34,733 bases of DNA. Source: Candidatus Bathyarchaeota archaeon. GTDB taxonomy: Archaea > Thermoproteota > Bathyarchaeia > Bathyarchaeales > SOJC01. Shown piece after piece: positions 20,713 through 33,093 of this stretch. The notes under the pieces are model-generated. The model was not told the DNA's origin. It ran no database searches and saw only the letters and a list, made by a program, of their open reading frames with translations. The stretch is taken from contig JAOZHR010000014.1 in assembly GCA_026014805.1 (NCBI GenBank), positions 1 through 34,733 of the forward strand. Direction: 5' to 3'. Position 1 is the first letter of the stretch. Each line of letters starts with the position of its first letter. Both the position numbers and the translations under genes were made by a program.

Positions 20713-21114
20713 ATCTATTCTTCCGTTAACGAGTAGTTATGGCACAAAAAAAGTGTTTTTGTCCTTATAAAGTTTCATTCCTTTTGATAAGTACTAGGGT
20801 TTATATTCTTCCCCATAGCTTCCAGCGATTATGAATACGTCGAATATATCTATGATTCCACAAGGCTCTACAATGTCACAGTGGGGTTCCACTTAGGGTC
20901 TAAAGGTGTAGAACTATAGGCACTAGCAGCCAAGACAACATTAGCGCTAGAGACGCCTTCTTCACATTTTCCCCCATATACAACATGTTTTTGAATCTAT
21001 TATCCTTTTTGAAAGGACCCACTCTGCTTGTCATTAAATATTTTCATAGAAACTAATATTACAAATATTGATTTTGCATGCTTAACACTTTTCGTCTAGT
21101 AGGTGAATAATTAG
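20713..21114. other. Intergenic region upstream of eS24
   Basis: About 400 bases without a convincing gene. It holds the eS24 TATA box. A stop-free plus-strand stretch at about 20798-20923 reads FPIASSDYEYVEYIYD and then STRLYNVTVGFHLGSKG; this looks protein-like but has no start codon and may be the remnant of a lost gene. No RNA fold or repeat was noticed. Confidence 0.35.
20765..20772 (-). promoter_or_regulatory. TATA box of the eS24 operon
   Basis: The minus strand reads CTTTATAA, a near-consensus archaeal TATA box centred about 56 bases before the eS24 ATG. Predicted start of transcription is around 20742. Confidence 0.5.
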
Positions 21115-29928: not shown

Positions 29929-32900
29929 ATGCAAAAATACGTTCGGTTAGTGTTAGTTGTCTCAATTTGCTGCTTCATAGCTATATCTCTCATTCCAACT
30001 AGAGCCCTAAAGGTCAAGCAGTATCAATCTCCTGCAGCTGAAGATAACAAAAACACGTTAAGCATTAAGACCCACACCATGTCAGATTCAATTATAGTTG
30101 AGTTGTTTTTCCCACAACCCACTATAATTGATTCCCAAAATTACCACTCAGTTGAGATGCAAGACTTACTAAGATTTGGTGCTCCCGGTGAGCCAGTACT
30201 CCCTTTCAAGACGATCAAAGTGTTGATTCCTCAAGGCAAAGAGTTCCAAAGAATCGATGTGGCTCACGGCAATAAAAAACTGTTAGAAGGCAAGTTCAAT
30301 GTGGAGTATGGAAAGACAGCAATACCCATTTCATCTAAGACTAGCATTGCAGACCGACAAAATCAGGAAATCTATAGCTCCTCAGATCCGTTCCCCAGTG
30401 CGTTGTTTTCACAAGCATCAGAGCAATATGTACGAGGATATAGAATCCTCCTCTTGACACTTCATCCAGTCCAGTACATTCCAAAAACGGGTGAACTATC
30501 CTACTTCGAAACCATGACTGTTACTATTAATTTAAAGGAAACTAGCAAAACATCTCCATGGCTAAGAAATCTGCCAAAAGACAGAATGACCGTTCAAGAA
30601 ATTGCGGACAATCCAGAGGCCGCGGAAACGTACACAATAACGACAACACAATTGCGACCATTATCTGTGAATTCGTCGGAATCATACGATTATGTGATCA
30701 TTACCGACAGCACTCTGAACTCTTCATTTCAGCCATTAATCGATTGGAAAATCCTGAAGGGATTAAACGCAACAACAGTTCTGGTTGAAGACATTCTAAG
30801 CGACCCAGACTATTATGGCAATGGTTTGTTTGGTGACGGTTCGCAATTTAACGATACAGCTGCCCGCATAAGAAACTTCATACGAGATGCATACTATAAC
30901 TGGGAAACTGAGTATGTATTGCTCGGTGGAGACATAGGGATTATTCCTAAAAGAGGCACCTATGGCTTTGTCGCGACGGACCCAATTACGGTAGACTACA
31001 GCATCCCTTGTGACATGTACTATGGGGCCCTTGACGGAAGCTGGGACAACGACAACGACACCATATTTGGCGAAGGAGTTTATTCAGAAGGTTCAGAATC
31101 ACCTCAGAATGGAACAGCTGGAGAAGAAGCCGACTTCTTTGCGGAAGTATATATCGGAAGAGCACCAGTGACTTCACCAGTGCAAGTAGAGAATTTCGTC
31201 AACAAAACGCTGTGGTATGAACAAGCTTCAGATGACAGCTATTTCAGGAAGGCAGTGATGATTGGTGAAAAACTGGACGATGAAACGCAAGGCGCAAACA
31301 GCAAGGATTTGGTATCAGATGAAATACCGCAGTATACAACGACAAGGTTGTACGAAAGAGACGGCTCATACAGTCGCTCAGCAGTTATCGACGCAATTAA
31401 CAGCGGCACCCACATATTGAACCATGATGGACATACAAATCCCGATATTATGATGGAACTGACTAGAGATGACGTCGACACTCTCATCACCAACACGGAA
31501 TACTTTTTCGGATATAGCATTGGATGCCACGCAGCAGCATTCGATGGAGACTCAGTCATAGAACATTTCATCTATAACCCTCACGGAGCCTTTGCATTCG
31601 TAGGCAACTCAAGATATGGCTGGTATTCGCCAGGCACAACATTTGGAACAGGAGACCAATTCGACAGAGCATTCTTTAACGTCCTGAATAACACCGTAAG
31701 AAATCTAGGTAAGACACTGCAGTTCTCAAAGGAAGGATTTGCAGGTTCAACGTCAAACAGCGTGAGATGGACTTACTTTGAGCTAAATCTCCTTGGAGAC
31801 CCTGAGACAGAACTAGTAACTGAGATTATGGCACCAACAGCTCACTTCCAAACTAACCCGACTGCAGAACGGTTATCACCACCCATTCTCCTAGGCGTCG
31901 TAAACATTACAGGCGTAGCAAGAAGAGGAACAGCAGCTGGAACAACATTCAGTAACTTCACAATTGAATTCTATCGAAGTGGCCAATGGCATTCTGATGG
32001 AATTTCACTACTAAACAATGGTCATGACGAGACTACTAATGACATGTTAGCCATTTGGGATACTAACGTAGTTAGCCCAGGGACAGTTGATCTTAGGCTG
32101 ACTGTAAAAGATGAAAATGGCACAATTGGAGAAGATAGGTGGCGAGTTCGCGTCGAAGAGTTACCTGCCATTCGCGTACTTCCTAAACTTACCGAGACAC
32201 AAGAAGGCTTGACCTTCACAGTAAGTGTCATGATTACCGATCCAGTAAACCTCTTTGGACTAGACTTTCACATGAGCTGGAACACTACACTCGTAGATTA
32301 CGTCAGTCATGCCTTATACATTCCAGTAGAAGATTACTGGTGGGGAATTCTATACAGCCCAGTAACGATAACCAAAGACAACGTGAACCAGACAGCCGGA
32401 ACCTACTGGGTGGCAGCAGAATCAACGTCTTCAACCCCGTTCAACAAAGATGGAACAGTCTTCGACATGACTTTCCAAGCCATAGCCACTGGCGCTTGCA
32501 ACCTAGAAATATACTCCACCAACCTTACCGAGAAAGATGGCACACCAATAACCCATAAAATTGCTGATGGCGTCGTAGAAATAGCACCAGGTGTTCACGA
32601 TGTGGCAGTTACAGGTATTTCGCTTGTTGACACTGTTGTTGGTGAAGAATACCAGGCCAGAATCAGGGTGACAGTTGCGAATGAAGGCACCTACGCTGAA
32701 AACTTCAACATCACAGTCTATGCAAACGGGACCCTCATAAACACAACCCAGATCGCCCTCTCTCCCCTTAACTCGACAACGATTACTGTTATTTGGGACA
32801 CAACAGGATGGATGAAAGGCAACTACACAATTAGCGCTAACGCCACATCAGTCCTTGGAGAGACAGACATGGCAGATAACACAATGGTCAATGGCACGAT

Positions 32901-33093
32901 TATAATAACCATAGTTGGCGATGTTGACGGAGACAGGGATGTTGACATCTACGACATCGTTCGAATGGCAGGCATCTACGGTGTGAGCCAACCAGATCCA
33001 AGATATGACCCCAACTGTGACATAGACGGCGACGGAGACATAGACATCTACGACATAGTAGCCGCAGCTGGAAACTACGGGCAAGGCACATAA
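29929..33093 (+). CDS. Secreted C25 (gingipain-like) cysteine protease with cohesin-like, CARDB and dockerin domains
   Basis: 1054 residues. A signal peptide (about 1-26, LVLVVSICCFIAISLIP) precedes a propeptide-like region to about 230. The caspase-fold protease domain covers about 250-640: HILNHDGHTNPDIM gives the catalytic His (H502) and GYSIGCHAAAF the Cys (C533). After beta domains, residues about 749-887 resemble a type I/II cohesin (VMITDPVNLFGLDFHMSWN ... VFDMTFQAIATG). A CARDB-like domain follows (about 888-990), then a dockerin with two EF-like loops, DVDGDRDVDIYDI and DIDGDGDIDIYDI (about 998-1050). Extracellular protein degradation, anchored or assembled through cohesin-dockerin pairing, is the likely role. 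Many N-glycosylation sequons fit secretion. Confidence 0.88.
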   Translation: MQKYVRLVLVVSICCFIAISLIPTRALKVKQYQSPAAEDNKNTLSIKTHTMSDSIIVELFFPQPTIIDSQNYHSVEMQDLLRFGAPGEPVLPFKTIKVLIPQGKEFQRIDVAHGNKKLLEGKFNVEYGKTAIPISSKTSIADRQNQEIYSSSDPFPSALFSQASEQYVRGYRILLLTLHPVQYIPKTGELSYFETMTVTINLKETSKTSPWLRNLPKDRMTVQEIADNPEAAETYTITTTQLRPLSVNSSESYDYVIITDSTLNSSFQPLIDWKILKGLNATTVLVEDILSDPDYYGNGLFGDGSQFNDTAARIRNFIRDAYYNWETEYVLLGGDIGIIPKRGTYGFVATDPITVDYSIPCDMYYGALDGSWDNDNDTIFGEGVYSEGSESPQNGTAGEEADFFAEVYIGRAPVTSPVQVENFVNKTLWYEQASDDSYFRKAVMIGEKLDDETQGANSKDLVSDEIPQYTTTRLYERDGSYSRSAVIDAINSGTHILNHDGHTNPDIMMELTRDDVDTLITNTEYFFGYSIGCHAAAFDGDSVIEHFIYNPHGAFAFVGNSRYGWYSPGTTFGTGDQFDRAFFNVLNNTVRNLGKTLQFSKEGFAGSTSNSVRWTYFELNLLGDPETELVTEIMAPTAHFQTNPTAERLSPPILLGVVNITGVARRGTAAGTTFSNFTIEFYRSGQWHSDGISLLNNGHDETTNDMLAIWDTNVVSPGTVDLRLTVKDENGTIGEDRWRVRVEELPAIRVLPKLTETQEGLTFTVSVMITDPVNLFGLDFHMSWNTTLVDYVSHALYIPVEDYWWGILYSPVTITKDNVNQTAGTYWVAAESTSSTPFNKDGTVFDMTFQAIATGACNLEIYSTNLTEKDGTPITHKIADGVVEIAPGVHDVAVTGISLVDTVVGEEYQARIRVTVANEGTYAENFNITVYANGTLINTTQIALSPLNSTTITVIWDTTGWMKGNYTISANATSVLGETDMADNTMVNGTIIITIVGDVDGDRDVDIYDIVRMAGIYGVSQPDPRYDPNCDIDGDGDIDIYDIVAAAGNYGQGT

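Follow-up and report, generated by a model that had tools for sequence, protein, structure and literature searches.

The closest described relatives of the system considered here are archaeal proteins that combine cohesin and dockerin modules outside of a cellulosome. The Archaeoglobus proteins AF2375 and AF2376 are noncellulosomal, with both modules in one protein, and strong binding has been shown for them experimentally. To our knowledge, they have no catalytic protease domain, and Archaeoglobus has few cohesin/dockerin proteins compared to the dozens found here. The pair from Archaeoglobus fulgidus is cited as cohesin–dockerin proteins in PMC9012536, which, in a section on such proteins, also describes secreted proteins of anaerobic methanotrophic (ANME) archaea with a dockerin and one to five cohesins per chain, and dockerins on NikA/OppA-type substrate-binding proteins. 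That section does not describe a cohesin-bearing C25 protease for ANME (PMC9012536). A gene for one is present on contig JAOZHR010000014.1 of a Candidatus Bathyarchaeota archaeon (assembly GCA_026014805.1), which we analyzed as a window of 34,733 nucleotides. The window's genome (G000, with a size of 1.79 Mb and a completeness of 96.6%; hereafter the own genome) further differs from the ANME case in its lineage and, taken with its relatives, in having several tagged peptidases and a scaffoldin gene beside opp genes. We argue that the C25 protein is probably both an enzyme and an adaptor in a surface cohesin–dockerin network. Labels beginning in G, C and L denote genomes, contigs and loci.

Among bacterial systems, Acetivibrio cellulolyticus ScaA has a glycoside hydrolase family 9 enzyme, seven cohesins and a dockerin in one polypeptide. 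It resembles the present protein in joining all three elements in one chain, but its enzyme is a glycoside hydrolase for cellulose degradation. The gingipains of Porphyromonas have a homologous C25 catalytic domain and propeptide, but they bear adhesin and type IX secretion system (T9SS) C-terminal domains where the present protein has cohesin, CARDB and dockerin. The adaptor scaffoldin ScaC of Ruminococcus flavefaciens (PMC5301203) joins a cohesin and a dockerin in one short chain and alters the choice of dockerin proteins that are recruited. The COH-CARDB-DOC unit (COH, cohesin; DOC, dockerin) of the present protein is like it, except that it is fused to a protease and that bacterial systems often use different specificities at each end. 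Dockerin-tagged peptidases are also found in cellulosome bacteria, including an R. flavefaciens cysteine peptidase (PMC5301203) and a C. thermocellum S8 double-dockerin protease (PMC12484212). These are likewise secreted and directed to the cell surface by the dockerin, but an in-chain cohesin is not reported for them, and they are minor accessories of a carbohydrate machine. An earlier sequence-only reading of the window held that the two modules normally lie on separate partners in cellulosomes. That is overstated, since adaptor scaffoldins and some archaeal proteins (PMC9012536) combine both. In the freely readable literature searched, we found no account of a cohesin-bearing C25 protease or of such a system in Bathyarchaeia. 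Archaeal chains that hold both cohesin and dockerin are known, while a system of this kind for proteolysis and peptide uptake looks undescribed.

Domain identity of the C25 protein

The open reading frame (ORF) has 1054 codons with no internal stops, and the gene is intact. Pfam, family profiles, motifs and a hydropathy scan bear out the sequence-only reading that a signal peptide (probable), the C25 His/Cys pair, a cohesin-like domain, a CARDB-like domain and a two-loop dockerin are all in one chain (Table 1). C25 family membership follows from a PF01364 score of 194.6 bits against a cut-off of 23. The catalytic dyad is assigned from motif and order. Sequence matches in PDB are to gingipains for the catalytic part and to dockerins for the tail. 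We infer that the gene product is a C25 cysteine endopeptidase, with proteolytic activity predicted.

A Pfam scan of the full-length protein does not give a Cohesin match. Taking this miss as a refutation of the cohesin was considered and rejected, as it is overruled by tests of the isolated domain and of profiles. In isolation, residues 757–888 match PF00963 over profile positions 9–139 at 4.3e-6 and 27.4 bits, above the cut-off of 24.1, and Cohesin is matched by 26 of the 32 sequences in the domain's family alignment. A BLAST comparison pairs the domain, at 32% identity (E 1.5e-17), with one in the protein at L063:6914-8056, which has two cohesins by Pfam (68 bits). When the cohesin family profile is compared to all PDB chains, the confident matches are cohesins with type II scaffoldins on top (3l8q, 5.6e-15; 2y3n_A, 2.1e-7; SdbA/2bm3, 5.5e-6). 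Judged by sequence, residues 757–888 are a true cohesin. The identity proposed in the earlier reading stands, but the boundaries shift slightly from the 749–887 given there.

The dockerin is also divergent from the Pfam model. Dockerin_1 (PF00404) matches residues 997–1043 with an E value of 0.0068 and 17.0 bits, under the cut-off of 22.9. Since the dockerins of close paralogs pass that cut-off (25.0 and 26.5 bits), and the dockerin family profile finds solved dockerins (2y3n_B at 2.9e-8, the partner chain of cohesin match 2y3n_A), we call the tail a divergent archaeal dockerin. Both calcium loops have Asp at positions 1, 3, 5, 9 and 12. A CARDB domain is directly upstream in 57 of the 76 dockerins that have enough upstream room. 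This layout recalls the X module–dockerin dyad known from type II clostridial dockerins.

The C25-cohesin-CARDB-dockerin architecture is found in 8 genes in 7 genomes, the own genome among them, from two families of one Bathyarchaeia order. The identities to the window protein are 92% (G008), 61% (G009), 57% (G006), 54% (G160) and 53–55% (G189/L021), and G107 has two such genes at 68% and 56%. The order is shared with the 'Candidatus Bathyarchaeota' metagenome-assembled genome M8_bin1642, whose L021 is the same contig as G189:C12. Two more orthologs, in G010 and G007, are cut off at contig ends. Since domain order and content are kept down to 53% identity, the architecture is not due to chance. 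No relatives of the protein were found in the viral contigs searched.

Table 1. Features of the C25 gene, with window coordinates.
Feature	Coordinates	Strand	Basis
Complete gene for a secreted protease (1054 aa) with C25 propeptide and peptidase, Ig-like linker, cohesin, CARDB, dockerin	29929..33093	+	ORF, Pfam, family profiles
Probable signal peptide	29929..30006	+	Hydrophobic from residue 3 (Kyte-Doolittle scan); probable cleavage near residue 26
C25 propeptide, residues 76-209	30154..30555	+	PF08126, E 4.1e-10
Peptidase C25 catalytic domain, residues 255-629	30691..31815	+	PF01364, E 4e-57; PDB gingipain chains
Predicted catalytic His502 (NHDGH)	31432..31434	+	Motif; invariant in 4/4 aligned orthologs
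Predicted catalytic Cys533 (YSIGC)	31525..31527	+	Motif; invariant in 4/4 aligned orthologs
Cohesin domain, residues 757-888	32197..32592	+	PF00963 on isolated domain; PDB type II cohesins; family hidden Markov model (HMM)
CARDB (Ig-like) domain abutting dockerin, residues 890-995	32596..32913	+	PF07705, E 8.1e-7 over 902-972
Dockerin, residues 994-1052	32908..33084	+	PF00404 17 bits (below cut-off); family profile; PDB dockerins
Calcium loop 1 (998-1009), putative recognition residues I1007/Y1008 (loop positions 10-11)	32920..32955	+	Sequence
Calcium loop 2 (1031-1042), putative recognition residues I1040/Y1041 (loop positions 10-11)	33019..33054	+	Sequence
Approximate extent of the exchange, judged against the ortholog of the genus-mate (G008)	32914..33048	+	DNA divergence comparison

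The neighbours of the C25 gene encode a HAD hydrolase, a phosphoesterase-like protein, a small Cys-rich protein and a NiFe hydrogenase large subunit. An operon logic was considered and dropped; these neighbours look unrelated and are merely kept in the genus-mate too.

Cohesins and dockerins in the genome and the order

The HMM search of the rest of the genome that was proposed with the sequence-only reading does find other genes for both modules. In the own genome, the family profiles detect 9 cohesin domains; for dockerin they give 24 matches at E<=1e-6, rising to 28 at E<=1e-3. The Pfam models find 7 dockerins and 3 cohesins over cut-off, so that standard annotation misses most of the system. 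Neighbour genomes are richer, with 38 dockerins and 17 cohesins in G008, and 36 and 23 in G003, which is one contig. Across 121 genomes of the order, 41 have both modules and 55 have none, while 15 carry cohesin alone and 10 dockerin alone (odds ratio 15, p 9e-11). For the genomes beyond the own family, the odds ratio is 10 (p 1.5e-7). Both values were calculated without regard to phylogeny.

Besides the C25 peptidase, the own-genome dockerin carriers include an S8 subtilase (9.7e-61, L091), three above-cut-off SBP_bac_5 proteins of the oligopeptide-binding type (L055, L093, L094), plus a partial SBP_bac_5 protein (L060). Others are an arylsulfotransferase-like protein (L061), a metallophosphatase and a rhodanese (both L089), and NosD beta-helix and PKD proteins. 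Pfam scans, which covered part of the dockerin proteins, turned up no glycoside hydrolase. The subtilase gene, at L091:3676-6702 (+), encodes S8, CARDB, NosD beta-helix and dockerin in a single chain, which is an unusual combination. The protein of L036:1-1719 (+), on own-genome contig C19, appears C39-like by eye with no Pfam catalytic match; its start is lost at the contig end, and it has a second, internal dockerin-like repeat at 184–242 besides its C-terminal CARDB-dockerin. The window itself has a decayed dockerin gene at 20797-20954 (-). It derives from the dockerin C-terminus of a NosD-type protein, is frameshifted and has no intact ORF; in two frames it is 65–75% identical to own-genome paralogs.

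On the cohesin side, the COH-CARDB-DOC unit recurs in many proteins, and enzyme-free adaptors with the same tail are common. Finding cohesin and dockerin in one chain is thus nothing rare here. An own-genome adaptor, COH-CARDB-CARDB-DOC, is at L053:6825-8207 with a single-cohesin gene close by. The own genome also encodes a two-cohesin FIMAH protein (L063), two-cohesin proteins at L064 (cut by a contig end) and L067, and a cohesin-CARDB-PKD protein at L065:5589-7001. A C-terminal membrane helix is predicted by hydropathy in this last protein and, among others, in the cohesin proteins at L072, L079 and L083. COH3-CARDB-DOC scaffoldins are found in G008, G003, G009, G002, G110 and others, while the own genome has two-cohesin proteins. 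Some of the two-cohesin proteins are large, about 1000 aa when complete: L094:13634-14890 and L067:6645-9686 in the own genome and L070:6112-9138 in G008. A portion of the L067 protein is similar by eye to a segment of the dockerin-bearing SBP protein of L055.

The location of the scaffoldins points towards peptide uptake. In G008 (L070), the COH3-CARDB-DOC scaffoldin gene is downstream of oppB, oppC, oppD, oppF and a two-cohesin gene. The own genome has, at L094, an SBP_bac_5 gene with a C-terminal dockerin upstream of the same oppBCDF genes; its contig, C18, stops inside the two-cohesin gene that precedes the scaffoldin in G008. In G110 (L102), from another family, scaffoldin, cohesin and dockerin genes are beside a dockerin-bearing SBP_bac_5 gene and oppB/oppC, although the orientation differs. 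In G160 (L112:794-7494 (-), contig C114), three consecutive genes that share a strand and are spaced about 90 bp apart encode C25-COH-CARDB2-DOC, M14 carboxypeptidase-CARDB-DOC (M14 being a zinc carboxypeptidase) and a COH-CARDB-DOC adaptor. The opp-side scaffoldins and this peptidase cluster are the best evidence for a role in proteolysis and peptide uptake, and they suggest a functional coupling of the two. The protein-degrading, cellulosome-like assembly of the sequence-only reading is favored by the tagged peptidases, the peptide-binding proteins and the scaffoldin beside Opp in relatives. With no glycoside hydrolase among the scanned dockerin proteins, the term cellulosome fits the wiring and not the substrate.

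Putative docking residues and dockerin exchange

We ranked the columns of a dockerin alignment from ten genomes by their information on genome of origin. The top columns (15, 48, 21 and 54) are loop position 11 and position 17 in both repeats. These columns stay at the head of the ranking once near-duplicates are dropped and each genus is represented by a single genome; when all genomes are included, three of them remain among the top four. In each repeat, positions 11 and 17 vary more between genomes than within one. The own genome has IY or IF with A17, G002 has IT with I17, G104 has AK with G17, and G160 has LY or LF with L17, most of its dockerins sharing the L[YF] motif. G004 has ID and G113 has VL. 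Scaffoldin dockerins bear the code of their home genome in G008, G003, G009 and G110. G004 is the exception in that its adaptors deviate from the genome's code. The dockerins of its COH-CARDB-DOC adaptors (L032:1195-2205 and L116:5277-6290) have IN or ID and then KA, compared to ID/ID in the majority, a possible second specificity. Positions 10, 11, 17, 18 and 22 are the classical specificity positions of clostridial dockerins. A loop pair numbered 11–12, corresponding to the present loop pair, was mutated in a peptidase dockerin (PMC5301203). The symmetry of the code between the two repeats suggests a dual binding mode, as known from type I dockerins.

Comparison with the G008 ortholog suggests that dockerins can move between genes. 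Between the two genes, the dockerin differs at 22.6% of bases (40/177) and the remaining gene at 5.6% (166/2979; p 4e-13), with the 3' flank about 95% identical. The synonymous divergence is 2.2 in the dockerin and 0.11–0.19 elsewhere in the gene, while the dockerin protein identity is still 86%. The window dockerin DNA is 82% identical to that of the own-genome L060 gene but 77% to that of the G008 ortholog. Two other dockerin gene pairs between the own genome and G008 have 91–93% DNA identity. The simplest reading is that, in one lineage or the other, a paralog recombined with the gene and its dockerin was swapped. Such exchange would mean that the dockerins of different proteins are interchangeable here, and it is a possible mechanism for keeping the code uniform.

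Proposed role and alternatives

We consider it likely that the window gene encodes a secreted, propeptide-controlled C25 endopeptidase serving as both enzyme and adaptor within a surface cohesin–dockerin network of this Bathyarchaeia-class archaeon. The protein would be exported by the general pathway and its propeptide then removed. The CARDB-dockerin tail would bind, in the presence of calcium, to cohesins that the same cell carries on membrane-anchored or scaffolding proteins. The in-chain cohesin would be a socket for a further protein with a dockerin, for instance an oligopeptide-binding protein or another peptidase. The network would probably hold protein digestion beside peptide capture and uptake. 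The proposal is also favored by an ortholog in G197, in which a predicted C-terminal membrane helix takes the place of COH-CARDB-DOC; tail and anchor may be interchangeable means of holding the enzyme at the cell. The binding of cohesin to dockerin, the choice of partners, the proteolytic activity and the coupling to uptake are predictions from the sequences. We more tentatively suggest, as a possibility short of an even chance, that members of the order have a genome-wide, largely single-specificity machine devoted to protein and not to cellulose. Endo- and carboxypeptidases, oligopeptide-binding proteins and scaffoldins would then share a per-genome code, recombination between paralogs would exchange dockerins and help uniformity, the C25 protein would be a branching adaptor, and digestion and import would be in one assembly.

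Several results weigh against this proposal. AlphaFold2 gave a pLDDT (predicted local distance difference test) of 45 for the cohesin, from an alignment of two sequences, with no fold seen, and of 40 for cohesin-CARDB-dockerin, with no interface seen. Foldseek with the pLDDT-45 cohesin model found nothing at E<=0.001. With models this poor and no significant Foldseek match, the cohesin fold is backed by sequence alone. The own assembly lacks a counterpart of the COH3-CARDB-DOC scaffoldin, with contig C18 ending at the expected locus, and the C25 gene adjoins neither scaffoldin nor opp genes in the own genome. The co-occurrence statistics leave phylogeny aside. Finally, the C25 enzyme could cut the cell's own surface proteins rather than food protein.

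If the cohesin bound a dockerin within its own chain or on a second copy of the protein, self-assembly would give capped monomers or head-to-tail polymers. In the own genome and close relatives, the cohesin-bearing proteins share the I[YF] signature with the enzyme dockerins, so there is no obvious orthogonality of the two ends in the own genome. But own-genome dockerins exceed cohesins by about 2.5 to 1; most dockerins must therefore serve other partners, and docking in trans must dominate. Together with the common enzyme-free adaptors and the deviating adaptor motif of G004, which implies orthogonality in some relatives, this makes self-assembly rather unlikely.

The dockerin might instead merely tether the protease to a membrane-anchored cohesin, leaving the in-chain cohesin as an evolutionary leftover or a non-binding structural domain. 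Cohesin-fold domains do sometimes have other roles elsewhere. Also, the G197 ortholog, whose genome shares its genus with G107, is 59% identical over residues 54–747 and has no cohesin-CARDB-dockerin tail, just a membrane anchor after the Ig-like region. It terminates in a hydrophobic helix, basic at its end (..IPEFTSFLILPLFLIATLPAVILYRRKQGT), that is predicted to be a membrane helix. The ending of this protein (L113:6768-9428 (+)), IPEF plus the membrane helix, we take to resemble PEF-type sorting tails. However, the cohesin is kept in all full-length dockerin-bearing orthologs, with 36% of its columns invariant across four orthologs. In the closest ortholog pair, its ratio of nonsynonymous to synonymous divergence (dN/dS) is 0.12, below the 0.27 of the catalytic domain. 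A cohesin with no binding role is accordingly an unlikely account.

We find it quite unlikely that the C25 enzyme is a PorU-like protease for the maturation or sorting of surface proteins and not a digestive one. There is a weak NCBIfam match to the T9SS sortase PorU, but at 59 bits it is far under the cut-off of 420, and the same region matches gingipains; identification as a PorU-type sortase was dropped on that score. Moreover, further peptidases are dockerin-tagged, with S8 in the own genome and M14 beside C25 in G160. That residues 757–888 are a generic Ig-like domain and the tail an unrelated calcium-binding repeat, as the missed cohesin and sub-cut-off dockerin of the full-length scan might suggest, is extremely improbable and already contradicted by the profile tests, given that the isolated domain is over the Cohesin cut-off, the family profiles match solved cohesins and dockerins, and paralogs pass both Pfam cut-offs.

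We return to a network of tagged peptidases and peptide-binding proteins as the likely setting of the C25 protein. Anoxic sediments hold Bathyarchaeia in abundance, and the breakdown of protein by archaea in these sediments has been linked to gingipain-type peptidases. A dockerin code common to peptidases, peptide-binding proteins and scaffoldins is a testable answer to how small cells retain their enzymes and products. The natural exchange of dockerins between genes can be read from sequence. If the proposal is true, it would provide compact cohesin–dockerin pairs for protein engineering, and it would extend the logic of the cellulosome to proteolysis in archaea.

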